From Nitrospirales bacterium (GTDB lineage Bacteria > Nitrospirota > Nitrospiria > Nitrospirales > UBA8639), in contig JALDRJ010000002.1 in assembly GCA_031315865.1 (NCBI GenBank), positions 3,632,001 through 3,696,000 of the forward strand: DNA of 64,000 bases, written 5' to 3'. Shown here piece by piece: positions 41,701-56,458 of the stretch. A program made the position numbers and the translations under genes. The first letter of the stretch is position 1. Each line of letters begins with the position of its first letter. Under the pieces are notes generated by a model. It saw nothing but the letters and a program-made list of their open reading frames with translations. It was not told the origin of the DNA and did not search any database.

Positions 41701-42121
41701 TGCGCTCAAACGCGCGATCGAGAATCTTCAGATGACCATCGAAGAAAAACACGCCATCATCACTCACGAACTTCTGCCCACTCTCCCCATCGACCTCGGA
41801 CAGATCACGCAATTGTTCCAGAATCTCCTCTCGAATGCCATCAAATTCTGCGAAGGATACACACCGATGATCCAGATTTCCGTCTCCCACCAGGACAACC
41901 ATTGGCTCTTCACCGTCAAGGATAACGGCATCGGCATGTCCAGCCAGTATCGACACAAAATCTTCGTGATCTTCCAGCGCCTTCACGGAAAGTCCAAGTA
42001 CCCCGGCAGCGGCTTAGGGCTGGCCATTTGCAAACGAATCGTCGAACGGCATGGCGGGCAAATTTGGGTTGAATCGGAAGAGGGCCAGGGAAGCACGTTT
42101 TATTTCACACTCCCAACCTAG
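38702..42121 (+). CDS. CheB-CheR-PAS-histidine kinase fusion
   Basis: 1139 residues. The CheB methylesterase domain (about 58-240) keeps the Ser (GIGASAGG), His (VVIQHLSP) and Asp (GTGADGSRG) triad but has no N-terminal receiver. The CheR methyltransferase (about 260-530) shows GVTKFNRDP, AGCATGQEAY and LICCRNMLIYF. A heptad coiled coil of repeated NEEL units spans about 715-785. A PAS-like domain follows, then HisKA with SHDLHEPLRK (His about 928) and HATPase (about 1030-1139, GSGLGLAICKRIVE). Such fusions may couple reversible protein methylation with phosphorylation. No MCP receptor is in the window. AAAGG lies 11 bases before the ATG. It heads the clock/signalling region. Confidence 0.93.
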   Translation: MKNPNLKSRKKSRTASKKVEIPSLPAHASHPSHPADDIKLDNLVMESNGPPAKPFRYPTHIVGIGASAGGLDAIEQLFQNMPVRTGIGYVVIQHLSPVFPSMMVEILSRHTMIPINRAEDGMPVEPDTIYLIPPKKNMIIASGRLHLTEQDPTEPLHLPIDIFFRSLAQDLHNRAIGIILSGTGADGSRGILEIHKAGGYVIVQDETTAKFDGMPRAAIATGTAHCVSDPSGMPTNILGHVGVPQDTSALEPLSGLPTNQETHIHDIFTLLRLRYGIEFHYYKAATIDRRLERRLKIVQCLNLQEYLRYLQENPAELDRLYHDLLIGVTKFNRDPAAFIELQTHFYKLFQTIPPDREELRVWVAGCATGQEAYTIAITLKEFAEATNQSATIKVFATDVHQASLDIAADGCYSEDELKVLPAQVREKYFTKNGREFRIARTIRQMVVFANHNVISAAPFTKIDLICCRNMLIYFEPMIQRKVIALFHFALRTRGLLFLGPSENVGGAEDEFDSLSTKWKIFLKRRDVRLAEAKPLPTTVTNMSGTRFPRKKQGDLTAEGPDNTAVWAYEALLSEIIDTGFLVSETQEVLHIFGDATQFLRPATGRPSASFTKLLDEDLARAITTGIHRASRTRAPVQYGGIQHQTDAGSQALTIKIRPLRNTRTNSTFYFVYIERSPAMQLLQEPLTDPSTFATVSTDQFTDLQSELEYTKETLQTTNEELETSNEELQAANEELVSSNEELQSTNEELLSTNEELQSANEELQSVNEELHTVNSEFQQKILELTQLTSDMDNLLTSSEIATIFLDNSLSVRKFTPAVSTMMHLLPRDLGRPIAHINHQIQLGKEQLADLCQHVYDTKELLERETPCGTDKWLFMRILPYFDEYQHVQGVVLTFMEITPLKKTELTLKSYTAKLEASNQDLQDFAFVASHDLHEPLRKIISFHEQLSQELSDVQLTPEAKDFLARSTNAASRMHTMIQDLLAFSRIHSRGKELTKQNCNDALKRAIENLQMTIEEKHAIITHELLPTLPIDLGQITQLFQNLLSNAIKFCEGYTPMIQISVSHQDNHWLFTVKDNGIGMSSQYRHKIFVIFQRLHGKSKYPGSGLGLAICKRIVERHGGQIWVESEEGQGSTFYFTLPT

Positions 42122-42462
42122 CATTCACGGAGGCGGACCAGAGACAAGAAACCACTCGTGACCGGTCTCGTGCTCCCCTTCCCGCCTCACCTACCGGCTT
42201 TTGGCTTTTTCTCTGGTAATGTGCTACTATTCGACATTCTTATTTTTATCGTTCTTACGCTTCATTGGTTCTAGTTATTTCCTAATCTTTTCCTCCGTTT
42301 TCCTTCATACCGTCCTACTGTATTGATGACGGACATCTCTATTTTCCCAGCATGACTGTGTCCGTTTTGACCTGACGATCATGTACCGCGTGTAGGTGCC
42401 CCACTCTTACGTCTTTACGCCACTTCACGAAGGGTTTCTGGAGGTGCGTGAGAGGATAGTAT
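42122..42462. other. intergenic leader upstream of the kai-type operon
   Basis: About 340 bases, pyrimidine-rich, no protein gene. Two weak sigma70-like candidates: TTGGCT (42201-42206) with TACTAT (42225-42230), spacer 18, and TTGACC (42367-42372) with TGTAGG at spacer 18. Neither is strong. No recognised riboswitch. Confidence 0.45.
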
Positions 42463-43326
42463 ATGTCTTATCGCTTATTGCTCATCGAAGATGATCCAGA
42501 AGACGTGCTCATCTTGAAACGTCTTCTTCAAGAAACCAACGGGCAGGCTTGGCTTCAGACTGAATCGACGGTGGAAGATGGCCTGTTGTACCTTCAATCC
42601 GAAAAGCCAGATGTAATTCTGCTCGACCTGTTCCTTCCTGATAGCCGTGGATTGGATACCTTTCAACAGCTTCACGACGATTTCGCCAGTATCCCGATCA
42701 TTGTCCTGACCGGGCATACCGATGAAGAACTGGGCGTGGAAGCCCTCAAAATCGGAGCACAAGACTTCCTGACAAAGGGAGATTTCAATTCGCAAATGCT
42801 CGGCAGGAGCATTCGGTATGCCATCGAGCGCCACCAGCTCAAAATGCTGGCCAAGCAGCGGCAGGACCAGGCGGAAGCCGAGCTTCAGGCTCTGTTTCGT
42901 CTGGTCAAACACAGGGAAAATCAGGTCACGACCGAACAATACGCAGAACCGTTGATTGAAGACAGCTCACCTGCCCTCTTTCATCATGTGAAGCATCAGT
43001 TCGTCCAGACGCTTGAGCGTGCGCTGGAAGAACAAAAGTACAAGACGGAATCCCAAGTCTCGAGTAATCTCAACCGAATCGCGCAACGACTGGGGACACT
43101 CCACGCAGGTCCCCGAGATGTCGTGAACGTCTACCGTGCAGCCTTACAGGAGCTCACGACATCCTCTCAACCTGAAAAGGCTCGCGCCTATGTCGAAGAA
43201 GGACGAATGTTGGTTTTACGGTTAATGGGAGAGGTCCTTTCTTATTATCGGCGCCACAGCCTGAAGCACCTCACGCCGGCAAAGAGTGCTGAGGCCTCTC
43301 AACCCCTTCACCACTCATCACGCTGA
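42463..43326 (+). CDS. receiver protein with C-terminal KaiA/RsbU-like domain; candidate KaiA analogue
   Basis: 287 residues. Residues 1-125 are a receiver with acidic D10-D11, phospho-acceptor D55 (LLDLFLPDSRG), T83 and K105, so it should be phosphorylatable. A helical linker (about 126-155) follows. Residues about 170-268 form a helical segment whose pattern GPRDVVNVYRAALQEL, then EEGRMLVLRLMGEVLSYYRR, resembles the four-helix KaiA C-terminal domain and the related RsbU N-terminal domain. KaiA drives KaiC phosphorylation by binding its tail. kaiB starts 28 bases downstream and kaiC overlaps kaiB, so position supports a KaiA-like role. The assignment of the C-terminal domain is by eye and is inference. 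GAGAGGA lies 8 bases before the ATG. Confidence 0.75.
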   Translation: MSYRLLLIEDDPEDVLILKRLLQETNGQAWLQTESTVEDGLLYLQSEKPDVILLDLFLPDSRGLDTFQQLHDDFASIPIIVLTGHTDEELGVEALKIGAQDFLTKGDFNSQMLGRSIRYAIERHQLKMLAKQRQDQAEAELQALFRLVKHRENQVTTEQYAEPLIEDSSPALFHHVKHQFVQTLERALEEQKYKTESQVSSNLNRIAQRLGTLHAGPRDVVNVYRAALQELTTSSQPEKARAYVEEGRMLVLRLMGEVLSYYRRHSLKHLTPAKSAEASQPLHHSSR

Positions 43327-43354
43327 GCCCGTGATGGGCAAGGAGCCAGGACCT

Positions 43355-43669
43355 ATGAAATCGTTCCTGAAACTCTACATAACAGGACACTCGGTCAAAA
43401 GCCAGGAAGCCATCCGGACCCTGCATAGGATTTGTCATGATGAATTTCGCGAGGACTATGAGATTGAAATCATTGACGTTCTGGAGAATCCTCAACTCGC
43501 GGAAGACGAACGGATCCTCGCGACGCCCACGGTCGTCAAAGAATTACCCCCTCCTATTCGTCGAGTCATCGGCGATCTCTCGGAACGCGAAAAAGTACTC
43601 ATGGGCTTAGACCTTGTTTCATCTTCCATCCCAGTGTTGTCACATGAAAAAGGAGGCCACGTGGCATGA
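43355..43669 (+). CDS. kaiB: circadian clock protein KaiB
   Basis: 104 residues, canonical length. FLKLYITGHSVKSQEAIRTL opens the thioredoxin-like fold; IDVLENPQLAEDERILATPT and RRVIGDLSEREKVLMGLDL are nearly invariant KaiB blocks. KaiB binds the KaiC CI ring after a fold switch and competes with KaiA or kinases. Start 43355 was chosen because AGGAG lies 9 bases before it and the protein then begins at the usual residue; the open frame back to 43286 overlaps the receiver gene. Its TGA overlaps the kaiC ATG (ATGA). The short tail after GLDL (SSSIPVLSHEKGG) is non-conserved. Confidence 0.96.
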   Translation: MKSFLKLYITGHSVKSQEAIRTLHRICHDEFREDYEIEIIDVLENPQLAEDERILATPTVVKELPPPIRRVIGDLSEREKVLMGLDLVSSSIPVLSHEKGGHVA

Positions 43670-45192
43670 TTCCAACAGGATGTACTGAAATTGCCAAAGA
43701 CCCGACTGGCATCCCGGGGTTCGATCTCATTACGTATGGAGGCCTGCCGCGGAACCGAACGGTCTTAGTCTCTGGCACGGCGGGAAGCGCCAAAACCGTC
43801 CTGGCCGCGCAATTTCTTGCGGAAGGCATTCAGCAATTTGATCACCATGGCGTGTTTGTGACGTTTGAAGAAACCCCAGACGATATTCGTAAAAATTTAG
43901 TCGGATTCGGCTGGAACATTCAGGAATGGGAAGAGGAGGAAAAATGGTGTTTCGTGGATGCCAGTCCAACGCTGAACGGACATACGGTCATATCCGGCCA
44001 GTTCGACATGGGCGCCCTCCTGGCCCGCATTGAACATGCGATCGGCAAGGTTGGCGCGAAGCGCGTGTCATTGGACTCGATCGGGTCGATTCTCGGTCGA
44101 TTTCCAGATACGCACCTCGTCCGCAGCGAGCTTCTCCGGATTGCGGCGGCGCTGAAACTGCTCAATGTCACGGCCCTGATGACGAGCGAACGCGTCGATG
44201 AATACGGGCACATCAGCCGGTACAATGTCGAAGAGTTTATCGCGGACAATGTCATTATTTTACGGAACACGCTTCAGGACGAAAAACGCCGACGAACGAT
44301 CGAGGTCCTGAAATTCCGGGGAACCAACCATCAAAAGGGTGAATACCCCTTCACGGTCCGGTCGGGGGAAGGTATCGTCATTCTCCCGCTGTCCGCGATG
44401 GAATTGACCCAAAAATCCACGACCGTTCGCATTTCTTCCGGCAATCAGGATCTGGACAATATGTGCGGTGGCGGATTCTTTCGCGACTCCATTCTCCTCA
44501 TCACGGGCGCGACCGGATGCGGCAAAACGTTGTTGACGAATGTCTTTATGCGGGCCGGCGCGGAAAGCCAGGAACGATGTTTACTCCTGGCATTTGAGGA
44601 AAGCCGCGATCAAGTCGTCCGCAATGCGTCTGGATGGGGTATCAACTTCGAAGAAATGGAGAGTGATGGCTACCTGAAAGTCATCTGCACCTATCCTGAA
44701 CACAATAATCTCGAGGATCATCTCATCCAGATAAAAAAGCTCATCGACCAGTACCAACCCACACGCCTAGCAGTCGACAGTCTCTCAGCGCTACACAGGG
44801 TTTCGAGCCCCAAGGGGTTTCGAGAGTTCGTGGTGGGCCTGACCTCTCACGTGAAGGCGCACCAAATCGCCAGCCTGTTTACCTCCACGGCCAATTATGG
44901 ACTGAATGGGAACTCGACCGTGACCGCCGACCATATTTCAACCATTACTGACTCCATTATCCTGCTTCGGTATGTAGAGTTTTTCGGCGAAATGCATCGT
45001 GGGCTCACTGTGCTCAAAATGCGCGGGTCCTACCACGATAAACAAATTCGGGAATTTACGATTGACGATTATGGCATCCATATCGGACGCCCCTTTCGGC
45101 ATGTCACCGGAATTCTACGCGGCAATCCGCAACATTTACCGCAATCTGAGATCGATCGCCTCGGAGCTTTGTTCGAAGAGGAATCGAGTTAG
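43666..45192 (+). CDS. kaiC: circadian clock ATPase/autokinase KaiC
   Basis: 508 residues, two RecA-like domains. CI: Walker A GTAGSAKT (37-44) and catalytic E68-E69 (FEETPDD). CII: Walker A GATGCGKT (281-288) and E311-E312 (FEESRDQ). The autophosphorylation pair is S425-T426 in DHISTITDS, with T420 at the place of the cyanobacterial regulatory Thr. KMRGSYHDKQIREF and the C-terminal stretch FRHVTGILRGNP (A-loop side) are conserved, and a tail remains for KaiA-type binding. All residues needed for a phosphorylation cycle are therefore present. AAAGGAGG lies 9 bases before the ATG, which overlaps the kaiB stop. Confidence 0.96.
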   Translation: MIPTGCTEIAKDPTGIPGFDLITYGGLPRNRTVLVSGTAGSAKTVLAAQFLAEGIQQFDHHGVFVTFEETPDDIRKNLVGFGWNIQEWEEEEKWCFVDASPTLNGHTVISGQFDMGALLARIEHAIGKVGAKRVSLDSIGSILGRFPDTHLVRSELLRIAAALKLLNVTALMTSERVDEYGHISRYNVEEFIADNVIILRNTLQDEKRRRTIEVLKFRGTNHQKGEYPFTVRSGEGIVILPLSAMELTQKSTTVRISSGNQDLDNMCGGGFFRDSILLITGATGCGKTLLTNVFMRAGAESQERCLLLAFEESRDQVVRNASGWGINFEEMESDGYLKVICTYPEHNNLEDHLIQIKKLIDQYQPTRLAVDSLSALHRVSSPKGFREFVVGLTSHVKAHQIASLFTSTANYGLNGNSTVTADHISTITDSIILLRYVEFFGEMHRGLTVLKMRGSYHDKQIREFTIDDYGIHIGRPFRHVTGILRGNPQHLPQSEIDRLGALFEEESS

Positions 45193-45257
45193 GACTCTCT
45201 TTGACTTATTGACGAAAACACGCCTTGTTGTCGATCATCGAGGCTCATGTATTCTTC

Positions 45258-46778
45258 ATGGCTCCCCACCCTTCACATCACCGGCCCAGTGAACAAGAAT
45301 TCCGCGCGCTGGTGGAGCATAATATCGATGGCATGGTCATCATCGCCGATGATAGCCGCATCAGCTTCGTCAATGCCGCCGCGTGCCGGCTTTTCCATCG
45401 AACCGCCGAAGAACTGCTCGACGCGCCGTTCGGGTTTCCCATCATCGCGGACCAAACCACCGAGATTGACCTTTTGGGCCCCAATGGCCTCGTCACTCCA
45501 GTCGAAATGCGAATGGTCACGGTCGATTGGAAGGGGCAAACGAGCTACCTGGCCTGCCTTCGCGACCTGACAGAGCGTCGAAAAGCTGAAGAAGAACGCC
45601 GTCGATTAGCCAACAAAATGCAAAACGCCCAAAAGCTGGAATGTCTCGGCATGTTGGCAGGCGGGATCGCCCATGACTTCAATAATTTGCTCATGGCCAT
45701 CGTGGCCCGGGCGGGGCTGGCCCTTCGACTGCTCGGTGAAAACTCTCCTGCGAGTCAACACTTGGAACATATCAAGGACTCCGGGCTCCGCGGAGGAGAA
45801 TTAGCGAATCAGATGTTGACCTATGCTGGAAAGGGGAAAGCCTGCATTCAACCCTTGGACATCTCGCAACTCATCAAGGACATGATGCACTTGCTCCGGA
45901 CATCGCTGCCGAAACACATCTCGCTGACCTACGAGTTGGATCCCCACATTCCCCGCATGCAAGCCGATCATTCGCAACTCCAACAATTGTTATTGAGTAT
46001 CCTCATCAACGCCTCTGAAGCGATCGGCGATACCCAGGGCAGCGTGCACATCTCGACGGGAACCGAGAAAGCCCAGATGAATCACCTCCAGGAATGGTAT
46101 GTCGCGGGCGACATTCCGACCTCCCTGAGCGTATTTATCAACATCCAAGACACCGGGTCAGGCATAGACAAAGACACCATTCCAAAAATTTTTGATCCTT
46201 TTTTCTCGACGAAATTTACCGGGCGAGGCTTAGGTCTTGCGGCCTTACTCGGCATCGTTCGTTCACTCAATGGAGCTGTCGCCGTGACGAGTCAAGCCGG
46301 AGAAGGCACGCATTTTCGACTCTTTTTCCCCTCCTTGGTCCCGGAATCGACAGAACCGGCACCGGCAGAATCGCAGGATTTCCATTGGAAAGGATCAGGG
46401 ACGATCCTCGTCGTCGATGATGAAGAGGATGTCCGGGAAGCGACGCAACTCATCCTCGAAGAAATCGGCTTCACCGTCATCACCGCGAATCATGGAGAGG
46501 CCGGCCTTCAAATGTACAACCGGTATCGAGGCGAGATCACGCTCATCTTACTGGACCTGACGATGCCCGGCATGAACGGCGAACAGTTCTTCCACAAGAT
46601 TCGCGAGTACGACCCAGATATTCCCATCCTTCTCATGAGCGGATACAGCGAAGACGATGCGGCTAAACGATTCCAAGGCATTTCGCCGTACGAGTTCATT
46701 CAAAAACCCTATCAGATCGACGCGCTCATTCAAAAGGTTCGGTTCATCCTCGATTCCCACCAGCGCTCAGTACTGTAG
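45258..46778 (+). CDS. hybrid histidine kinase, PAS-HisKA-HATPase-REC
   Basis: About 506 residues, cytoplasmic. An N-terminal PAS domain (HNIDGMVIIADDSRISFVNAA) is followed by HisKA with GGIAHDFNNLLMAIVAR (phospho-His), HATPase (LLLSILINASEAIGD, DTGSGIDKDTIP, GRGLGLAALLG) and a C-terminal receiver with LILLDLTMPGMNG. It starts 65 bases after kaiC on the same strand, so it is a natural candidate for clock output or input. No KaiB-like SasA domain is present at the N-terminus. ATG 45258 was used; a TTG at 45225 extends the frame without family-like residues. No strong ribosome-binding site. Confidence 0.9.
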   Translation: MAPHPSHHRPSEQEFRALVEHNIDGMVIIADDSRISFVNAAACRLFHRTAEELLDAPFGFPIIADQTTEIDLLGPNGLVTPVEMRMVTVDWKGQTSYLACLRDLTERRKAEEERRRLANKMQNAQKLECLGMLAGGIAHDFNNLLMAIVARAGLALRLLGENSPASQHLEHIKDSGLRGGELANQMLTYAGKGKACIQPLDISQLIKDMMHLLRTSLPKHISLTYELDPHIPRMQADHSQLQQLLLSILINASEAIGDTQGSVHISTGTEKAQMNHLQEWYVAGDIPTSLSVFINIQDTGSGIDKDTIPKIFDPFFSTKFTGRGLGLAALLGIVRSLNGAVAVTSQAGEGTHFRLFFPSLVPESTEPAPAESQDFHWKGSGTILVVDDEEDVREATQLILEEIGFTVITANHGEAGLQMYNRYRGEITLILLDLTMPGMNGEQFFHKIREYDPDIPILLMSGYSEDDAAKRFQGISPYEFIQKPYQIDALIQKVRFILDSHQRSVL

Positions 46779-46802
46779 CTGTCATTTCCCCTTGCAGGTA
46801 CT

Positions 46803-49800
46803 ATGTTGAAGACTGAATACGCACAAACTACACCTAAACGCTCAACCTTAAATCCCTTTCGCAGTACGCTTCGCAACAAAATCACATGGATGCTCTCTGG
46901 GATACTCCTGGGCGCGACGTTAGTTGTCCTTCACCAAACGAGACAAAGTTATTTCGCCGCACTGACTGACGCGTCCGCCAATGAGGTTCGACACAGCATT
47001 GAGAGACTGGAAGGGCTTTGGGGCAACCAAATCAACCTCATTGGAGAAGATGTCCGCTTTCTTTCCCAAACGCTTCCCATTCAAGCCATTGTTCACGCAC
47101 GAAAGACCGGAGAGAGCAATCCACCAACGAAAGAGACGGCATCCGATTGGAAGAACCAGGTAGCCATGATGTTTACGGCATTCATGAAAGTCAGAAACAA
47201 CTATCTTCAAATTCGATTGATCGGCATCGAAAATGATGGGAAAGAGCTCGTTCGGGTCGATCGCCAACAAGGCGCTGTTTGGAGAGTCGGAGAATCCAGT
47301 TTACAAAAAAAATGGCACCGGTCGTATATGCAGGAAACGATACGTCAACCTCCAGGAACACTCTACTATTCTCCGATCGACTTAAATCGTGAGAATGGGA
47401 GAATCAGCGTTCCCCATATACCGACTTTGAGGGTCGCCACCCCAATTCATACATCTTCCGGCGAGATTCTGGGAATATTCATCATTAACTACAACATGAA
47501 CGAATTGTTTTCCCAGATGCGCGGCATGGTGCGCGCGAAACAAACGTTGTACCTCACAAACCAAACCGGTGAATACCTCATGAATCCGGACCCTAAAAAG
47601 AACTTTCTGTTCGAGTTTGGCCAATCCTACACAATGCAACAGGATTTCCCTCAATTCAAAACATGGCTGACATCCAGAATGACTCCTCAACTCCCCGCCA
47701 TCTTATCCAGTACCGTCAATGATCATGTGTTCGAACTTAAAAGGCTTCCATTTCCAGACAAGAAGACTAGATACATGATCCTCGGCCTGCATGATTCGTC
47801 CGACCCTTCACTCATTCTCCTTAATACGCTCATAACGAATATTGGTTTTCTATCGGTTGCGGTTCTCTCTTTAATCTGCGTAGCGATGATCTGGCTTGCT
47901 CGTTTCATGAGTCGGAAAGAGCATGAGCTACTCTCAATCATAAACACCGCCCCGACTGGCCTTCTCATGACCAATGAAGCTGGCACCATCGTCCTGACCA
48001 ACGCTTTACTGACTCAAAAATTTGGGTACGAAGAAGAAGAGTTGTTAGGCCAGTCGGTAGAAATGCTTCTTCCCAAACGTTTCCGTTCCGAACATCCTAC
48101 TCATCGTGCCGATTTTTTTGCCGAGCCCAGTCCACGCCGGATGGGCAAGGGGCGCGAACTGTATGCGCTGCGAAAAGACGGTTCCGAGTTTTCGGTCGTC
48201 ATAGGCATTACCTCACTGAAGACTGATGCGGAGACCTTAATTTTAACTTCGGTCGTCGATATCAGTGATCAAAAACTCGCAGAAGCCCGTTACAGAGACT
48301 TGATTCAATCCAACCTGCTCTTGATGTGGACCTGTCGCCCGACCGGTGAATGTGACTTTTTGAACGAACGCTGGCTGGCGTACACCGGCAAATCCGCGGA
48401 CGAGCAGCTGGGGTATGGATGGTTAGAACAACTCCACCCCGATGATCGAGAACGCGTGAATCGCACCTGGCAAGAAGCCGTGAAGAACGGGTCCCACTTG
48501 ATGGTGAAATTCCGTATCCGATGCCATGACGGCAGCTACCGGTGGTTTCTGGCTTTGGCCAATCCCTTAATGGACGACCGGGGAGCGATCGACCGTTGGG
48601 TCGGCTGCAATATCGATATTGAAGAGCAGCATCAGGCGGAAATAGCGCTTCAAGATTTGCTGCAACAGAATCGGCATATTCTTGAATCGGCGGGAGAAGG
48701 CATTTGGGGGTTGGACCTCGAAGGCAATGCCACGTTCGTCAACCAGGCTGCCGCGCGCATGTTAGGCTATCAACCAGAAGAGCTCATCGGAAAACCGATG
48801 CACACGCTGGTTCATCATACCAAACCCGATGGGTCGCCTTATCTTCAGGAATCCTGTCCCATGTATACCGCCTTCACCGAAGGCACGGCTCAACACCGGT
48901 CGGATGAGTACCTGTGGCGGAAAGATGGATCACACTTTCCCGTGTCATACACGAGTAGCCCGAACCTGGACGAACACAAGCGACTAACCGGAGCGGTCGT
49001 GGTGTTCCGGGACATCACCGAAGAGCTGGAAGCCAAAAGAATGATCGCCGAGAAGAATTTGGAACGCACACTCATCCTCGATAATGTTCCAGCCCTGGTC
49101 GCCTCGTTCGACCGGCACCATCACTATCGATTCGCCAATAAACGATACCTGAAATGGTTCAATATCACAGATGATTACCTCAAGGGCAAACATGTCCAGG
49201 AGTTGCTGACCTCCGAAGTCTACACGAACATCATACGCCCTAAGATGGATCGGGCCCTGAATGGCGAACTCACGTCATTCGAGTTGCAAATTCCACATGC
49301 CAACGGGCATCTGCGCTGGGTCCAAGCCACCTACGTTCCGGATCGAGATGTCCAGGGCGTCGTTCATGGGCTGTTTGCGATGGTCGTGGATATTCACGAA
49401 CGCAAGCAATTCGAAGCGCAACTAGAAGAAGTCACGGAACGTCTTCAATTAGCCACGCAATCCGCCGAAATCGGGGTCTGGGACTGGGACGTCACGCGCA
49501 ACGTGCTCACCTGGGACGAACGGATGTACGAGCTCTATGGAGTCACCCGCAACACCTTTGCCGGCGCGTACGAAGCCTGGACCAATGCCCTGCATCCCGA
49601 CGATCACGACCGGGCCCATGGCCAACTCCAAGCGGCCCTGGCAGGGGACGCCACGTTCAATTGCGAATTTCGCATCATCTGGCCCGATCAATCCATTCAC
49701 CATATTCGGGCCTTTGCGACGGTCCAACGCAATCAAGCCGGAGAGGCGATTCGTATGATCGGCGTCAACTGGGATATCACCATCGAGAAACTTCAGGAAC

Positions 49801-50564
49801 ACACGTTGACGCAGTACATCGATAATCTCCGGCGTTCGAACGCAGAACTGGAACAGTTTGCCTATGTGGCCTCGCATGACCTTCAGGAACCCCTTCGAAA
49901 AATCCGAAACTTCTCGGAACTCCTGGCCCTCCGCGCCAAGGGTCACCTGCCACAGGAGGCTGAAAAATACTTGAAGACGATCGTGGATGGGGCCCTTCGC
50001 ATGCAAACGCTCGTGCAAGATCTCCTCGCGTATTCCCGGGTCGCACGCGGCGCACTCAAGGTCGAATCCGTGGATCTTCGTGACGTGCTCAAGACCGTCC
50101 TCGAAAATTTAGATCAACGAATCATTGAAGCCAAGGGAACTATCACGGTCGGCACACTGCCCGTCGTCGTGGCCAATCGAACTCAGATGGAACAGTTGTT
50201 CCAGAATCTCATCGGTAACGGGGTGAAATATCGAACCGACGCGCCTCCTGTAATCGGCGTGTCGGCGGAGCGCAAGTTGACCCATTGGCTCTTCTCCGTT
50301 CGAGACAATGGCATTGGCATCGACCCTCAGTATGTCGAACGGATCTTCGTGATCTTTCAACGGCTCCACACGAAGCAAGAATACACAGGAACAGGGATCG
50401 GACTGGCCATATGCAAAAAAATCGTGGAGTTACACGGCGGTGATATCTGGGTGGAATCGACGCCTCACCAAGGTTCGACCTTTTTTTTCACCCTCCCCGA
50501 TCGCTCGAAATCGTCCTCTTCAATCGCGCACAACACCAGTTCATCTCAAGAGCTTTCAGCCTAG
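46803..50564 (+). CDS. membrane sensor histidine kinase with periplasmic Cache-like domain and five PAS domains
   Basis: 1253 residues. Membrane segments at about 28-45 and 340-365 flank a periplasmic sensor of about 290 residues (RLIGIENDGKELVRVDRQ, LRVATPIHTSSGEILGIFIIN), Cache-like. Five PAS domains follow: about 375-490, 497-610, 620-745, 750-870 and 880-1000; the second and fifth are of the PAS_3 type. HisKA has FAYVASHDLQEPLRKI (His about 1024); HATPase has DNGIGIDPQ and GTGIGLAICKK. No receiver. The SHDLQEPLRK subtype is that of phytochrome-like kinases, whose usual partners are Rcp1-type receivers such as the two encoded just downstream. It starts 24 bases after the upstream hybrid kinase. 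The ligand is unknown. Confidence 0.92.
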   Translation: MLKTEYAQTTPKRSTLNPFRSTLRNKITWMLSGILLGATLVVLHQTRQSYFAALTDASANEVRHSIERLEGLWGNQINLIGEDVRFLSQTLPIQAIVHARKTGESNPPTKETASDWKNQVAMMFTAFMKVRNNYLQIRLIGIENDGKELVRVDRQQGAVWRVGESSLQKKWHRSYMQETIRQPPGTLYYSPIDLNRENGRISVPHIPTLRVATPIHTSSGEILGIFIINYNMNELFSQMRGMVRAKQTLYLTNQTGEYLMNPDPKKNFLFEFGQSYTMQQDFPQFKTWLTSRMTPQLPAILSSTVNDHVFELKRLPFPDKKTRYMILGLHDSSDPSLILLNTLITNIGFLSVAVLSLICVAMIWLARFMSRKEHELLSIINTAPTGLLMTNEAGTIVLTNALLTQKFGYEEEELLGQSVEMLLPKRFRSEHPTHRADFFAEPSPRRMGKGRELYALRKDGSEFSVVIGITSLKTDAETLILTSVVDISDQKLAEARYRDLIQSNLLLMWTCRPTGECDFLNERWLAYTGKSADEQLGYGWLEQLHPDDRERVNRTWQEAVKNGSHLMVKFRIRCHDGSYRWFLALANPLMDDRGAIDRWVGCNIDIEEQHQAEIALQDLLQQNRHILESAGEGIWGLDLEGNATFVNQAAARMLGYQPEELIGKPMHTLVHHTKPDGSPYLQESCPMYTAFTEGTAQHRSDEYLWRKDGSHFPVSYTSSPNLDEHKRLTGAVVVFRDITEELEAKRMIAEKNLERTLILDNVPALVASFDRHHHYRFANKRYLKWFNITDDYLKGKHVQELLTSEVYTNIIRPKMDRALNGELTSFELQIPHANGHLRWVQATYVPDRDVQGVVHGLFAMVVDIHERKQFEAQLEEVTERLQLATQSAEIGVWDWDVTRNVLTWDERMYELYGVTRNTFAGAYEAWTNALHPDDHDRAHGQLQAALAGDATFNCEFRIIWPDQSIHHIRAFATVQRNQAGEAIRMIGVNWDITIEKLQEHTLTQYIDNLRRSNAELEQFAYVASHDLQEPLRKIRNFSELLALRAKGHLPQEAEKYLKTIVDGALRMQTLVQDLLAYSRVARGALKVESVDLRDVLKTVLENLDQRIIEAKGTITVGTLPVVVANRTQMEQLFQNLIGNGVKYRTDAPPVIGVSAERKLTHWLFSVRDNGIGIDPQYVERIFVIFQRLHTKQEYTGTGIGLAICKKIVELHGGDIWVESTPHQGSTFFFTLPDRSKSSSSIAHNTSSSQELSA

Positions 50565-50685
50565 CTAGACAGTTTTGAGGGCATGGGATAAGATGTTTAG
50601 ATAGATACCCGTTTACGCTGCTCTCGCTCTTCGTTGTCCGCAACATTCTCGCAAGAACTAGCATTCGTTATCTAAGGAGAAATCG

Positions 50686-51120
50686 ATGCTCGACCAGTCC
50701 AATCCGATTCATGTTCTCATGGTTGAAGATGATGAAGAAGATGTCGAGCTGACGAAGGTCGCATTGTCAAAGTCAAAAGTCGCCCTTGACCTTCAAGTCG
50801 TCGAGAATGGAGCCGAGGCCATGAGCTACTTGAAGAAAGCGCCTCCCTACCAGGACAGACCTCGTCCGGACCTGATTCTGCTCGACCTGAATCTCCCCAG
50901 AAAAAACGGGCGCGAAGTTCTCGCAGATCTGCAAAATGATGAAAGCTTACGGTTGATCCCGGTGATCATCCTCACCACATCCGACCAGGATGAAGACGTA
51001 CTGAGAACGTATGAGCTGGGGGCCAATTGCTATATCACAAAACCCGTGGGATTGGAACAGTTTTCAAAAGTCGTCAACGCTATCGACCACTTTTGGTTTT
51101 CAATCGTGAAGCTCCCTTGA
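50686..51120 (+). CDS. single-domain response regulator, Rcp1-like
   Basis: 144 residues, a lone receiver with DDEED acidic cluster, phospho-acceptor D67 (LILLDLNLPRKNG), Thr in ILTTSD and Lys in ITKPVG. The C-terminal helix ends HFWFSIVKLP, the mark of Rcp1-type partners of phytochrome-like kinases. AAGGAG lies 7 bases before the ATG. It follows the five-PAS kinase by 121 bases and probably receives its phosphate (inference). Confidence 0.93.
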   Translation: MLDQSNPIHVLMVEDDEEDVELTKVALSKSKVALDLQVVENGAEAMSYLKKAPPYQDRPRPDLILLDLNLPRKNGREVLADLQNDESLRLIPVIILTTSDQDEDVLRTYELGANCYITKPVGLEQFSKVVNAIDHFWFSIVKLP

Positions 51121-51220
51121 CCGGCTGCCATAAACCTTCGCGACCTCGGTCCGATCCCACAGGAATCACCAATCTCCGAACGCAAGGTCCGCGATCAACG
51201 CAAGAGAAAAGGAATGCCTT

Positions 51221-51664
51221 ATGTCACCCCGACCGATATCGATACTGTTAGTTGAAGATGACGACGAAGATATCTATTTGACTGAGGAAGCGCTTCACGC
51301 TTCGAAGCTCGTGATACAGTTAGACATCGTGAAGAATGGAGAGGACGCCATTAAGTATCTTCATCGTGAGGCGCCCTATGGCGACAAAATGTTGCCAGAC
51401 TTGATTATCCTGGACCTGAATTTGCCCAAAAAAAATGGATGGGAGGTACTCGAAACGATCAAATCCAACGCCACGCTCAGAACCCTCCCAGTTACGATCC
51501 TCACCACCTCCAGTGAAGACCCCGACGTACGGCGCGCGTATGACATGGGAGCGAACAGCTACATCACCAAACCCATCGGACTCGAAGCGTTTCGCAGCGT
51601 CGTTCACACGCTTGAGGACTTTTGGTTCACGATCGTGAAGCTGCCTCCCAAGCCAACCAGATAG
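51221..51664 (+). CDS. single-domain response regulator, Rcp1-like (second copy)
   Basis: 147 residues, clearly related to the preceding receiver: DDDEDI acidic cluster, D65 (LIILDLNLPKKNG), ILTTSSEDPDV, ITKPIG and the terminal DFWFTIVKLP. The pair is probably a tandem duplication that has diverged in the first 40 residues. AAGGA lies 8 bases before the ATG. It ends the plus-strand run; the next gene converges on it. Confidence 0.93.
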   Translation: MSPRPISILLVEDDDEDIYLTEEALHASKLVIQLDIVKNGEDAIKYLHREAPYGDKMLPDLIILDLNLPKKNGWEVLETIKSNATLRTLPVTILTTSSEDPDVRRAYDMGANSYITKPIGLEAFRSVVHTLEDFWFTIVKLPPKPTR

Positions 51665-51774
51665 CCATCCCTCCAAGATGATGGAGTACCCTGGGCTCGC
51701 GAATGCCGCAAGTTCTTTCTCGTGCCCAGCATGAAGCGCAAGAAACAAGGGCTCACGGCGATGTCTTCGTAGGA

Positions 51775-52947
51775 TTAAACGGCTGTGATCTGAACGGCAG
51801 CCGATGGCCGGTCTGTTTGAGGAGAGTCAATCTTCGGAAATGTCACGCTGAATGTACTTCCCTGGCCTTCAACGGAATTCACCCAGATTTTTCCGCCATG
51901 AAATTCGACGATTTTTTGACAAAGGGCCAGACCAATACCCGTGCCCTTTGGGATGTTCGTATGGTCTATTCGTTCAAACACCGTGAATATCGTCGTCAGA
52001 TATTTCAGCGGGATTCCGACTCCATTGTCACGAACTTGTAGATGCCAGTATCCATCCTGTTCATCGACCGCGACGTCGATTTGCGGAGGTTCGGCGCGAC
52101 GAAAGCGGATGGCGTTGCTGATGAGATTGCGGAACAATTGCTGAAGCAACCCCTGATTCCCCAGAATCTCTGGCAGAAGCGCGATCGTGATGTTGGCCTG
52201 AGCCTCCTGAACGACATCCTCCAATTCTCCAAGCACCTCGTGAACGGTCTCAGACAAATTCACGGGAAGCAATGGTTGCTGCCCGCCACCGACCAAGGAA
52301 TACGCTAAAAGATTCGTAATGAGTTGCCGCATATGATAGGCATTCTTAAGGGAGCGACTGAGATAATCCGCAACCTGTTCGGGTATATGCCCTTTGAGAT
52401 CCTTCTCCATGATTTCCAGGTAATTAATGATTCGTCTGATTGGAGCCTGTAAGTCATGCGAAGCCCGGTGGGAAAATTGCGCCAACTCCTTCTGCGATCG
52501 TTCGATTTCGAGTCGCTGCTCTTCTGCCTGCCGTATTAACACCGACTTCTCGACCGCGAGGACGACTGCGCGGATGAGGTCGTCTGCCGTCGTCTTTTTT
52601 TTCACGAGGTAATCTGCGGCTCCGCTCTTGAGCGCATTTCTTACGATCGATTCATTGCCATGATTTGTCAGAAGCAGGACCGGAATGTTTCGGTCACGCT
52701 GTTCATGAATCAATTTCGTCATCCATTCCAACCCATCCGCATCGGGAAGCTGATAATCGAGCAAGACGCAATCCGGATGCTCAGCCAGGAACAATTCCCA
52801 GCCTTTCGTTCCGGAATCAGCCTCGAGCACCTGAAAGACCGGGTGTTGATTCTTCCGTAGATAGTGACAGAACACCTCTCGTGCCTCTGCGCTGTCGTCG
52901 ATAAGCAGGACGGTCAAAGAAGAAGTCGTCATCGCTTGGGAAGTCAT
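51775..52947 (-). CDS. REC-histidine kinase (phytochrome-like kinase subtype)
   Basis: 390 residues, no membrane segment. Receiver at about 10-130 (LLIDDSAEAREVF, CVLLDYQLPDADG), short coiled coil, HisKA with FSHRASHDLQAPIRRI (His about 165), HATPase with NLISNAIRF, DNGVGIPLKY and GTGIGLALCQK. The N-terminal receiver should be the input from another kinase, which makes it a relay element. Starts at 52947 or 52932 are both possible; neither has a good ribosome-binding site. It is divergent from the riboswitch-controlled gene. Confidence 0.92.
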   Translation of the reverse strand: MTSQAMTTSSLTVLLIDDSAEAREVFCHYLRKNQHPVFQVLEADSGTKGWELFLAEHPDCVLLDYQLPDADGLEWMTKLIHEQRDRNIPVLLLTNHGNESIVRNALKSGAADYLVKKKTTADDLIRAVVLAVEKSVLIRQAEEQRLEIERSQKELAQFSHRASHDLQAPIRRIINYLEIMEKDLKGHIPEQVADYLSRSLKNAYHMRQLITNLLAYSLVGGGQQPLLPVNLSETVHEVLGELEDVVQEAQANITIALLPEILGNQGLLQQLFRNLISNAIRFRRAEPPQIDVAVDEQDGYWHLQVRDNGVGIPLKYLTTIFTVFERIDHTNIPKGTGIGLALCQKIVEFHGGKIWVNSVEGQGSTFSVTFPKIDSPQTDRPSAAVQITAV

Positions 52948-53270
52948 GAGAATAGAGTGATTAAAAGGGTAATTCTTGATGGATCTCGCATATCCATGAA
53001 GACCGTTGCTTATGATGCCGGGCCTTTACGTGTTGCTGGCACGCCTGCCAGTATCGAGTTTCATGCTATTAACCCTCTCGGCTTATCATCCTTTTTCCTA
53101 AAGGCGCGGCGCCTGCCAGTAGCTAGGATCGAGAAACTGACAGGAACCATCAGATCACGTCCAGTGAATAGTCCCAATGAACGCTTCTCTTCAACACGCC
53201 TGCCCTTTCTGCGCCGGACGATGGGCCAGCCATAAAGTTGTACGCTCCGAAGACCGATCAGAGAATCAAC
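52948..53270. other. intergenic region upstream of the riboswitch
   Basis: About 320 bases between a minus-strand REC-kinase gene and the riboswitch. It should contain two divergent promoters, none of which is clear by eye. I see no gene here. Confidence 0.45.
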
Positions 53271-53368
53271 ATCGTGAAAAGGGCAAACCATCCGTAAGGG
53301 TGGGACGCAAAGCCAAGGGACCTTTGAGAACGGTTGTGCAGACAGAGGTTCGCCCGGTTGCCACTCAT
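53271..53368 (+). ncRNA. cyclic-di-GMP-I (GEMM) riboswitch aptamer
   Basis: The core is diagnostic: GGGCAAACC (53281-53289), hairpin CCATCC-GTAA-GGGTGG (53288-53303) with a GNRA tetraloop, then GGGACGCAAAGCC (53302-53314), and the closing CGCCCGGTTGCC (53351-53362). This is the conserved layout of class-I c-di-GMP aptamers. The next start codon is at 53532, so about 165 bases remain for an expression platform. A hairpin GGGTG-12-CACCC follows near 53406-53430, but no T-tract is seen. The most likely controlled gene is the REC-kinase at 53532. Exact ends are approximate. Confidence 0.9.
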
Positions 53369-53531
53369 GCACCCCCTCCGGCTCGGCTCTCACGCTTCTG
53401 GCTCATGGGTGTCCAGCAGTTGTCACCCAAGATTCCCTTCTCACTCTCACAAGACATTGGTCATCAACCGATAAGGCAATAAAAGATTTCTCCGATGACC
53501 GTAGAGAGAACAAGAAACAAGGTCACCATTC

Positions 53532-54707
53532 ATGTCTGCCGCTGAAGCTCCAGATACGCTGCGCGTCCTCCTCGTGGAAGATGACGAGGACGATGCCGCT
53601 ATGACGCGGGCGCTACTCTCCAATATTCCCGGGACGCGTTTTGAGATGGATTGGGTCTCATCCTACGACCGCGGGCTAGAAATGATTCAAGCCAATCGCC
53701 ATGATGTCGACCTGGTCGATTATCACCTTGGCATGCACTCCGGGCTGGACCTCCTTCACGCAATCCAAGGGGAAACGCGACATGCCCCGGTGATTATGCT
53801 CACCGGCCACGGGAACGAATCGGTCGTCCTCGAAGCCATGCGGTCAGGAGCAGCCGACTATCTCCCCAAAGGATCCATGTCCTCGGAAAGCCTAGAGCGA
53901 GCGATTTCCCATGCAGTCGAAAAATTCCGTTTACGATGCCACCTGGACGAGCGGCATCGTGAGTTGCAACAAGCTAATGACGATCTCAAGATGCGCAGCG
54001 AAGAAATCGAACGCTTCTACCATGTGCTGGCACACGAGCTCAAAACGCCACTCACGGCTGCCAGCGAGTTCGTGGATATTCTCCTCGAAGAAATTTCCGG
54101 CCCCATCAATGCCGACCAACGCGAGTACTTACAGATCATCGACGGTTGTTTCGACTCGTTGAAACAGAACATCAACGATTTATTCGATATCACACGTCTG
54201 GAAACCGGGAAATTAAGCGTGACCTTGGAGTCTGCCCCGGTCGATGACCTCATCCATCAGGTCGTGACATCATTCGGCCCCATCGCCCACCATAAAGGCG
54301 TCACGCTCGACTGCGCTGTCTCTCCAAACCTGTCCGCCGTCTTCATGGACCCGCAGCGCATTCGACAGGTCCTGAATAACTTGCTCAGCAATGCCATTAA
54401 ATTCACGCCATCCGGAGGCTTCGTGACCATTGCCGCATCAGAAGAGACCGCCAACCCGTCCTTCCTGACCATTACGGTCACGGACACTGGACAGGGCATT
54501 GAAGCAGATCAATTGAGCCGCATTTTTGGTCGCCTCTATCAAATTCGTGATGACTCATCACCGTCGGTGGCCGGACTAGGCCTTGGACTTTTTATCGCGC
54601 GGGAGCTCGTGAAGCTTCATGGCGGCACGCTGTCGGTGACCAGCACACCGGGGGTAGGCAGCACATTTTCCTTTACCCTTCGTCACACGTCTCAACCCAC
54701 GTCATGA
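53532..54707 (+). CDS. REC-histidine kinase, downstream of a c-di-GMP riboswitch
   Basis: 391 residues, soluble. Receiver at about 10-130 with LLVEDDEDDAAM and phospho-Asp in VDLVDYHLGMHSG; coiled coil; HisKA with FYHVLAHELKTPLTAA (His about 170); HATPase with NNLLSNAIKF, DTGQGIEADQ and GLGLGLFIAREL. It starts a plus-strand group of three (REC-kinase, receiver, REC-kinase) separated by 25 and 4 bases, so the riboswitch may set the level of all three. AAGG lies 9 bases before the ATG. The HELKTPLT subtype differs from the SHDLQEPLRK kinases nearby. Confidence 0.92.
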   Translation: MSAAEAPDTLRVLLVEDDEDDAAMTRALLSNIPGTRFEMDWVSSYDRGLEMIQANRHDVDLVDYHLGMHSGLDLLHAIQGETRHAPVIMLTGHGNESVVLEAMRSGAADYLPKGSMSSESLERAISHAVEKFRLRCHLDERHRELQQANDDLKMRSEEIERFYHVLAHELKTPLTAASEFVDILLEEISGPINADQREYLQIIDGCFDSLKQNINDLFDITRLETGKLSVTLESAPVDDLIHQVVTSFGPIAHHKGVTLDCAVSPNLSAVFMDPQRIRQVLNNLLSNAIKFTPSGGFVTIAASEETANPSFLTITVTDTGQGIEADQLSRIFGRLYQIRDDSSPSVAGLGLGLFIARELVKLHGGTLSVTSTPGVGSTFSFTLRHTSQPTS

Positions 54708-54732: not shown

Positions 54733-55128
54733 ATGCAGAAGAAAATATTACTCGCTGAAGACGACGAACGAATCGTGAAAGCCATTTCCGTCCGGCTCAA
54801 CGCAAAAGGCTATGAAGTCCTCGCTGCCTACGACGCCATCATGGCCATGCAAAAAACCATGGAACAAGATCCCGATCTGATCTTGTTAGACATCAACATG
54901 CCTGGAGGCAATGGGCTCACACTCGCCGAGCGATTAAAAAATTCCAGCAAAACGAGTCACATTCCTATTATTTTCCTCACAGCGAGCAAACAACCCGATC
55001 TTCAACAACGTGCGATCAATCTGGGAGCGATCGCCTTCTTCGAAAAGCCATTCGACTTTGATGAGCTACTGGCGACCGTTCGGGCCGCTTTGGACCACCC
55101 ACATGTGCGCTTGACGAACGCGTACTAA
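54733..55128 (+). CDS. single-domain response regulator
   Basis: 131 residues, receiver only. Acidic EDDE near residue 9-12, phospho-acceptor D53 (LILLDINMPGGNG), Thr in IFLTAS, Lys in FFEKPFDFDELL. No output domain, so it is a relay or a protein-protein switch. It lies between two REC-kinases; its stop is 4 bases before the next ATG. It is of the common CheY/DivK type rather than the Rcp1 type. Confidence 0.92.
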   Translation: MQKKILLAEDDERIVKAISVRLNAKGYEVLAAYDAIMAMQKTMEQDPDLILLDINMPGGNGLTLAERLKNSSKTSHIPIIFLTASKQPDLQQRAINLGAIAFFEKPFDFDELLATVRAALDHPHVRLTNAY

Positions 55129-55132
55129 GGCC

Positions 55133-56458
55133 ATGTCACTCCTTTCGGTCATACCGGACCGTGAAAAAGCCTCACGTTCCTCACAAAGCCACGACTCCAC
55201 TCAAGCCTTGCGTGTGCTCTTAATCGAAGACGACGAAGACGACGCGCTCATCGCAAAATCCCTATTATCCTCCATAGAAGGCTCCACGTTCCACGTGGAC
55301 TGGATCTCATCATACGATGAAGCCCTCGACGTCATCCTGCAGAATCAACATGATGTCTGTCTGTTGGATTACCGACTCGAAGCGCGAACCGGCATCGAGT
55401 TTTTGAGGGAGACCCTGCAGTATGGTTGTCAAGTGCCCATCATCATGATGACCGGCGCGAAGGATCAAGAACTCGACTTCAAAGCCATCAAACTTGGAGC
55501 CGCGGACTATGTGGTCAAAGGCGAGACGGCTTCCGTTATCTTAAATCGCGTCATTCTCCACGCACTCGAGCGCAAGCGGGCCGATCTCGAAAGGCAGGAG
55601 CTCCAAACGCAACTTCTGGAGACATCCCGGCAGCTCGGCATGGCGGAAATCGCGATCAATGTTCTTCACAACGTAGGAAATGTCTTGAATAGCATCAATG
55701 TTTCCTCGGGCATCATCGCCCAGTCACTACGGCAAGCACATGTCGGAGAACTCGGGAAAGTCGCGGAACTCTTGAATGCCCACCATGATCAGCTTGGGCC
55801 ATATCTGACCGACGATGCCAAAGGCAAGCTGATTCCCCAGTATCTACAAGGACTGGGAACCGACCTTTCCATACGGTTTAACCGTGCCATTCAGGAAGTC
55901 GATGCTCTGGTTTCTCAAGTAGATCATGTCAAACATGTCATCAAAGCCCAACAAGACATCGCCAAACCCGGCGGTCTGCAGGAACCGGTCCGGGCCGAAG
56001 AACTGATTGAGCAAGCGTTGATGATCAGTCACGGGGAGCTCGTCCATCATCATATCGCGATCGTCCGGGACTATGCCCACCTTCCGCAGATCATGCTTGA
56101 CAAGCATCAAGTCTTGCAAATCCTGGTCAATCTTATCCGTAACGCCAAACATGCCATGCTCGCGATACAAAACATCCCCCACCGCCTCACGCTCCGACTG
56201 CGATATTGTGATGACCTGACAGATCACTTTCAGATCGAAGTCCAGGATACTGGGATAGGGATCAAGGCAGAAAATTTGACTCGTATCTTTGCCCAAGGCT
56301 TCACGACCAAGAAACAAGGCCATGGCATCGGACTGCATAGCAGCGCCCTGGCTGCGAAAAACTGTGGGGGCTCTCTTCAGGCCATCAGCGATGGGGAAAG
56401 GCATGGAGCGACATTTATCCTTCGGCTGCCGCTTTCCACGATACAGGCTCCCGCCTAA
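55133..56458 (+). CDS. REC-histidine kinase with non-standard H-box (HNVGN)
   Basis: 441 residues. Receiver at about 24-150 (LLIEDDEDDALIAKSLL, VCLLDYRLEARTG). The second part has the H-box-like NVLHNVGNVLNSINV near residue 182-196 instead of a normal SHELRTPL-type box. A long helical region follows, then HATPase with NLIRNAKHAML, DTGIGIKAEN and GHGIGLHSSAL. The receiver shares the WISSYDEALDVI-like sequence with the kinase at 53532 (WVSSYDRGLEMI), suggesting duplication. Whether the unusual His is phosphorylated is not known. Confidence 0.88.
   Translation: MSLLSVIPDREKASRSSQSHDSTQALRVLLIEDDEDDALIAKSLLSSIEGSTFHVDWISSYDEALDVILQNQHDVCLLDYRLEARTGIEFLRETLQYGCQVPIIMMTGAKDQELDFKAIKLGAADYVVKGETASVILNRVILHALERKRADLERQELQTQLLETSRQLGMAEIAINVLHNVGNVLNSINVSSGIIAQSLRQAHVGELGKVAELLNAHHDQLGPYLTDDAKGKLIPQYLQGLGTDLSIRFNRAIQEVDALVSQVDHVKHVIKAQQDIAKPGGLQEPVRAEELIEQALMISHGELVHHHIAIVRDYAHLPQIMLDKHQVLQILVNLIRNAKHAMLAIQNIPHRLTLRLRYCDDLTDHFQIEVQDTGIGIKAENLTRIFAQGFTTKKQGHGIGLHSSALAAKNCGGSLQAISDGERHGATFILRLPLSTIQAPA

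Follow-up and report, generated by a model that had tools for sequence, protein, structure and literature searches.

The locus analyzed here raises the question of whether a cyclic-di-GMP riboswitch sets the expression of a phosphorelay and whether the kai genes nearby have any part in that control. It lies in a 64,000-nt stretch of a Nitrospirales bacterium genome, hereafter the window, for which an initial annotation had proposed that a class-I c-di-GMP aptamer directly controls a receiver–kinase relay. We favor, with a probability of roughly 60%, a reading in which a FliA-type promoter starts a transcript headed by the c-di-GMP-I riboswitch, and the riboswitch acts as an OFF gate on a REC-HK / REC / REC-HK operon. 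The aptamer, its gene linkage, the promoter motif, the conserved complementarity, and the terminators of relatives were computed directly; the ligand, the OFF direction, and the stop mechanism of the window copy are what we infer.

The aptamer and the operon behind it

The covariance model for c-di-GMP-I (RF01051) matched the plus strand over its full length (model positions 1–87; Table 1), well above the gathering score of 35 bits (E = 1.2e-9 in the window search and 1.7e-11 in the genome search). By eye, the core is complete: GGGCAAACC, a GUAA tetraloop on P2, GGGACGCAAAGCC, and a closing CCCGGUUGCC. This score and the conserved arrangement described below exclude a chance match, and by class, as judged from the sequence, the element is a real c-di-GMP riboswitch. 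The claim of a class-I aptamer with all core elements is thereby borne out, as is its spacing of about 165 bases, the aptamer end lying 166 nt from the ATG. The genome carries five c-di-GMP-I aptamers, this one included. A short ORF spanning the aptamer (53177–53482) was rejected as a protein gene; it has no Pfam match.

The annotation had also described a REC-kinase leading a three-gene signaling unit, and Pfam assignments return that order. The third-gene kinase has no Pfam match to HisKA and carries an atypical H-box, LHNVGNVLNS. Its H-box LHNVGNVLNSINVS is conserved and is common to several kinases behind c-di-GMP-I riboswitches.

Table 1. Features of the riboswitch–relay locus (window coordinates)
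Feature	Position	Strand	Basis
Predicted sigma-28 (FliA-type) promoter, TAAAG-N16-CCGATC	53233..53259	+	Best site in 64 kb; conserved position
c-di-GMP-I (GEMM-I) riboswitch aptamer	53272..53365	+	RF01051, 61.7 bits
Predicted anti-aptamer strand CCCCTCCGGCTCGGCTCTCACGCTTC, complementary to aptamer core AAGGGTGGGACGCAAAGCCAAGGG	53373..53398	+	Duplex -26.9 kcal/mol vs. shuffles -20.5, P = 0.023
C-rich, G-poor stretch, candidate Rho-loading region, where relatives have a terminator	53373..53450	+	C/G 2.13 in best 78-nt window
Pair of weak, overlapping sigma-28-like sites, 3' of the aptamer and 5' of the start codon	53449..53498	+	Scores 12.7, 9.9
REC-HisKA-HATPase_c histidine kinase, 391 aa, first gene	53532..54707	+	Pfam PF00072, PF00512, PF02518
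Stand-alone receiver (REC), 131 aa, second gene	54733..55128	+	Pfam PF00072, 97 bits; same place in relatives
REC-HATPase_c kinase, 441 aa, third gene	55133..56458	+	Pfam PF00072, PF02518; same place in relatives

Aptamers were collected from 40, then 48, related genomes, and orthologues of the first kinase were sought in the 48. Such orthologues occur in 14 genomes of the family, the window's own copy counted, the others being 42–62% identical; in 11 of the 14, a c-di-GMP-I aptamer lies directly upstream on the same strand. At these 11 cascade loci (G000, the window's own, and G001, G002, G003, G004, G018, G050, G055, G056, G057, and G059), the orthologous kinases share 48–62% identity with the window kinase. 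The REC gene and the second REC-HK keep their order at related loci, and an extra receiver gene stands first after the aptamer in G018, G050, G055, G056, G057, and G059. G006 and G015 show a variant arrangement, in which the aptamer directly follows the first kinase and other receiver genes come after it, and G061 has a first-kinase orthologue with no aptamer nearby. A genome_contigs scan with the kinase turned up distant relatives only. The species are related, and these counts are not independent. Relatives both within the genus and in one or more other genera of the family retain the riboswitch–relay unit, and the aptamer is not a chance neighbor of the relay. The presence of the unit at 11 of 14 loci, together with the conserved leader–core pairing described below, supports aptamer control of the relay well.

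A predicted FliA-type promoter and a second FliA-type gene

The putative promoter consists of TAAAG (53233–53237), a 16-nt spacer, and CCGATC (53254–53259), and it would start transcription at about 53266, just 5' of the aptamer. It follows the sigma-28 pattern (TAAAG/TTAAG, 15–16 nt, CCGAT(A)) with one mismatch in the -10 element. A matrix trained without this site scored it at 16.3, against 13.0 for the next site on either strand of the window, and a sigma-70 consensus scan upstream of the aptamer found no promoter. A sigma-28-type site ends 8–11 nt 5' of the aptamer at 19 of 19 REC/HK-type loci (about 0.1 expected) and precedes none of the 25 aptamers of the second FliA-type sigma gene (fliA2). 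Such a site lies in the 120 nt upstream of 39 of 128 aptamers, against about 1.2 expected from same-locus density. Genome-wide, the strict pattern finds hardly more sites than its control (8 vs. 5 for the reversed pattern), so the promoter assignment draws on position and conservation.

A similar consensus, TTAAG-N16-CCGATA, has been described for FliA/sigma-28 promoters in Bdellovibrio, where an abundant c-di-GMP riboswitch RNA, with no downstream gene, belongs to the same life phase (PMC3627812). Here, unlike in Bdellovibrio, a protein operon follows the aptamer, the sigma-28-type motif keeps a constant spacing to that aptamer on its 5' side, and a riboswitch also precedes the second FliA-type gene.

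Two FliA/WhiG-family genes in the window's genome exceed the curated cut-off. The first (265 bits) lies close to flhA; the second (209 bits) has a c-di-GMP-I aptamer of its own in front of it, together with a clear terminator. An aptamer precedes the second gene in 25 genomes, in 24 of them with a terminator. In the window's genome this riboswitch with its intrinsic terminator (locus L111, G000:C2:3555318-3555413, minus strand; also in 24 other genomes) is distinct in its target from the flagellar cluster, whose FliA is not the FliA/WhiG-type gene behind L111. Two further c-di-GMP-I riboswitches of this genome have sigma-28-type promoters. One (G000:C2:2175573-2175654) precedes a Flp/Tad-pilus-like operon whose products, by inspection, are TadE/TadG-like, CpaB-like, and secretin-like. 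The other (G000:C2:715942-716037, minus strand) is followed by a receiver gene and by a PAS-kinase with an H-box (HNVGN) like that of the third window-operon gene; this riboswitch is conserved in G001–G004.

Should the promoter at 53233 be read by the second FliA-type sigma factor, c-di-GMP would control the relay through a two-tier circuit. We put this wider scheme forward only tentatively: A c-di-GMP-I OFF switch would gate the second FliA, and FliA-type promoters would start riboswitch transcripts that gate receiver–kinase relays, forming a coherent feed-forward loop. Rho attenuation would replace the terminator in the window's lineage, and the change of the ligand-reading base from G to A or C in sister species would hint at a changing ligand.

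The leader as a predicted OFF gate

Related genomes show how the leader may work. Among the 11 cascade leaders, an intrinsic terminator lies 20–30 nt 3' of the aptamer in seven (G001, G018, G050, G055, G056, G057, and G059). The 5' arm of this terminator has the typical sequence TTGCGCCCATTC and complements the aptamer P2 3' strand and the GACGCAA core. Across 40 riboswitches with terminators, cognate arms pair at a mean of -12.7 kcal/mol, against -11.8 for swapped arms (0 of 5,000 permutations as good) and a far weaker -8.0 for shuffled arms. In the fliA2 leaders, the base in GG[A/G]CGC covaries with its partner in the arm (A-U in 4, G-C in 19, one A/C exception), probably through one evolutionary event.

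Pairing of the whole core strand with the first 60 nt after the aptamer was then compared with dinucleotide shuffles. Thirteen of 14 leaders (the 11 cascade leaders plus G006, G015, and G017) beat the shuffles at P <= 0.023 and one stood at 0.06; setting the window aside, 12 of 13 did so at P <= 0.02 (the 13 being 10 cascade, 2 of the variant arrangement, and 1 related). The class mean z was -3.2, against -0.44 for other riboswitch leaders of the family, and anti-aptamer pairing was not seen in the PAS-kinase riboswitch leaders. Because the anti-aptamer would exclude the bound fold, and ligand binding would free the terminator arm, this pairing points to c-di-GMP acting in the OFF direction.

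In the window copy, the pairing must be read with caution, since its P of 0.023 (Table 1) comes from a second test; the first, restricted to the P2 3' strand and covering 160 nt of leader, gave a nonsignificant 0.225. The conserved TTGCGCCC element is missing from this leader, and the pairing that takes its place exceeds shuffles by a smaller margin than the pairing of relatives does. The leader as a whole is no more stable than its shuffles (z +1.3), and its unconstrained fold lies about 9 kcal/mol below the aptamer-constrained one. Imposing the aptamer fold raises the predicted openness of the anti-aptamer strand from 0.29 to 0.65 and leaves the ribosome site unchanged.

No intrinsic terminator was found on the plus strand of the window leader, nor in G002, G003, or G004. 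Rho-dependent stopping in its place is plausible for the window's lineage, and we infer it because the four terminator-less leaders are C-rich and G-poor, unlike the seven with terminators: C/G is 2.1–2.9 (n = 4) vs. 0.5–1.4 (n = 7; Fisher P = 0.003, among related species), and values >= 2 occur in 4% of 78-nt windows.

Under the favored reading, the transcript would start at the FliA-type (sigma-28) promoter, with the riboswitch at its very beginning. Without ligand, the strand at 53373–53398 would pair with the central strand of the aptamer, so that the binding core unfolds and transcription continues; once c-di-GMP binds, the aptamer would hold, the strand would be freed, and transcription would end ahead of the kinase gene. 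Most relatives would release this strand as the 5' arm of the intrinsic terminator; in the window's lineage, where the terminator is gone, it would lie inside the C-rich stretch, which may load Rho. High c-di-GMP would lower the relay, and c-di-GMP thus probably turns the phosphorelay down. On riboswitch control of the relay, the initial annotation is well supported; it had overlooked the FliA-type promoter and the predicted OFF logic, as well as the fact that this copy has lost the ancestral terminator.

Terminator loss in the window and three relatives also fits an uncoupled switch, in which the terminator has decayed, internal sites or read-through free kinase transcription from c-di-GMP, and the aptamer is a remnant. 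The two weak leader sites—ACAAG-N14-CCGATAA at 53449, seventh in the window by the leave-one-out matrix, and TAAGG-N15-CCGATGA at 53472—lend themselves to this, and the riboswitch-free transcripts they could start are the main caveat to our reading. We nevertheless judge uncoupling unlikely: All four species without the terminator have an intact aptamer despite divergence of the leader past it, the anti-aptamer complement is present in all four (P = 0.023, 0.003, 0.003, and 0.000), and the promoter 5' of the aptamer is retained.

Control of translation, with the ligand changing ribosome-site access of the first kinase, would likewise suit a leader devoid of an intrinsic terminator, many family c-di-GMP-I leaders lack one and lie near the start codon, and GGTCATC (53459), GATGACC (53496), and GGTCACC (before the ATG) offer a possible alternative pairing. 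Orthologous leaders of the same genes use terminators, however, and predicted openness is alike with and without the aptamer fold (0.73/0.74 for the Shine-Dalgarno, 0.38/0.36 for the AUG), making this account quite improbable. Masking of the Shine-Dalgarno was discarded on the same prediction.

Ligand, clock neighborhood, and known systems

In class-I aptamers, the position equivalent to G20 of Vc2 reads one guanine of the ligand, and G is its state in c-di-GMP binders; adenine there marks the cGAMP-type GEMM-Ib riboswitches. By pattern, we take the ligand-reading base of the window aptamer to be this position, and it is G rather than the adenine of GEMM-Ib. Seven GGDEF domains are encoded in the window's genome; the five readable ones all have the c-di-GMP-type Asp, and the readable GGDEF domains of G002, G004, and G059 have Asp, not Ser. 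A cGAMP maker (Ser/Thr-type, or Hypr, GGDEF) was therefore not seen among the readable domains of these four genomes, and c-di-GMP is the ligand that the sequence suggests for the window aptamer. The GEMM-Ib (cGAMP) subclass of Geobacter (PMC6456294, PMC8835794) shares fold and clan with the window aptamer and differs from it in these two respects, although four orthologues have A.

Among the 11 cascade orthologues, the base is G in five, A in four (G002, G004, G050, and G059), and C in two. Cascade aptamers in which A or C replaces G are those of G002, G003, G004, G018, G050, and G059. At c-di-GMP-I loci outside the cascade, about 7 of 117 lack G (a count made partly by eye), and a non-G base is thus commoner at the cascade locus (Fisher P = 1e-4, uncorrected for relatedness). 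From this drift, the ligand or the constraint may differ between species at the cascade locus.

The second part of the original interpretation, that the riboswitch joins c-di-GMP to the Kai clock, did not survive comparison across genomes. In this genome, kaiBC and a REC-type putative KaiA lie 8–11 kb upstream, and the link amounts to no more than this neighborhood of about 8 kb. Of the 48 genomes, only the window's own encodes a KaiC at E <= 1e-120; KaiB is absent from G003, G004, G055, G056, G057, and G059, all of which have the unit; and KaiB-domain proteins exceed the cut-off in 10 of 48. The riboswitch–relay unit does not co-occur with kai across the 48 genomes, and because it is present where kai genes are lacking, it is independent of them; such coupling is very improbable.

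The kai neighborhood has features of its own. A REC protein whose C-terminal half is unassigned lies immediately 5' of kaiB and kaiC (42463–45192), the layout described for kaiA3 (PMC11372060). Neither Pfam nor solved structures gave a KaiA match for the REC protein, and a solved-structure search found nothing for a KaiA-like C terminus of 42463–43326. A KaiC of such closeness (E <= 1e-120) is missing from the 47 related genomes searched. Two-component genes are packed across 38702–52947, with multi-PAS kinases and several stand-alone receivers; a 1139-aa kinase among them has CheB/CheR-like regions by inspection.

The riboswitch class is already known; the regulon and the proposed circuit are new. 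Cd1 of Clostridioides difficile, which precedes flagellar genes, is an OFF switch whose antiterminator cannot coexist with the ligand-bound aptamer (PMC9262584). The window riboswitch shares its aptamer class and, as predicted, its OFF logic, whereas it precedes a receiver–kinase relay, has no intrinsic terminator, and has an anti-aptamer strand that targets the P2 3' strand and the GACGCAAAGCC core. For two-component genes under a c-di-GMP riboswitch, there is one clear precedent, cmrRST of C. difficile, likewise a phosphorelay-type operon; it has a class II ON riboswitch, an invertible element, and DNA-binding regulators (PMC11477304, PMC12548384), whereas the window operon is class I, predicted OFF, and encodes no DNA-binding regulators. 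In the literature searched, mostly outside subscription journals, no c-di-GMP riboswitch is described as preceding a REC-kinase relay or a FliA-type sigma gene, nor is any described from this bacterial family.

If the favored reading is true, direct c-di-GMP control would reach beyond motility and adhesion genes to the expression of a phosphorelay, and the same circuit would have an alternative sigma factor at a higher level. The orthologous leaders, with or without a terminator and differing in the ligand-reading base (G, A, or C), form a ready test bed for change in the expression platform, and perhaps in the ligand, while the target genes stay.
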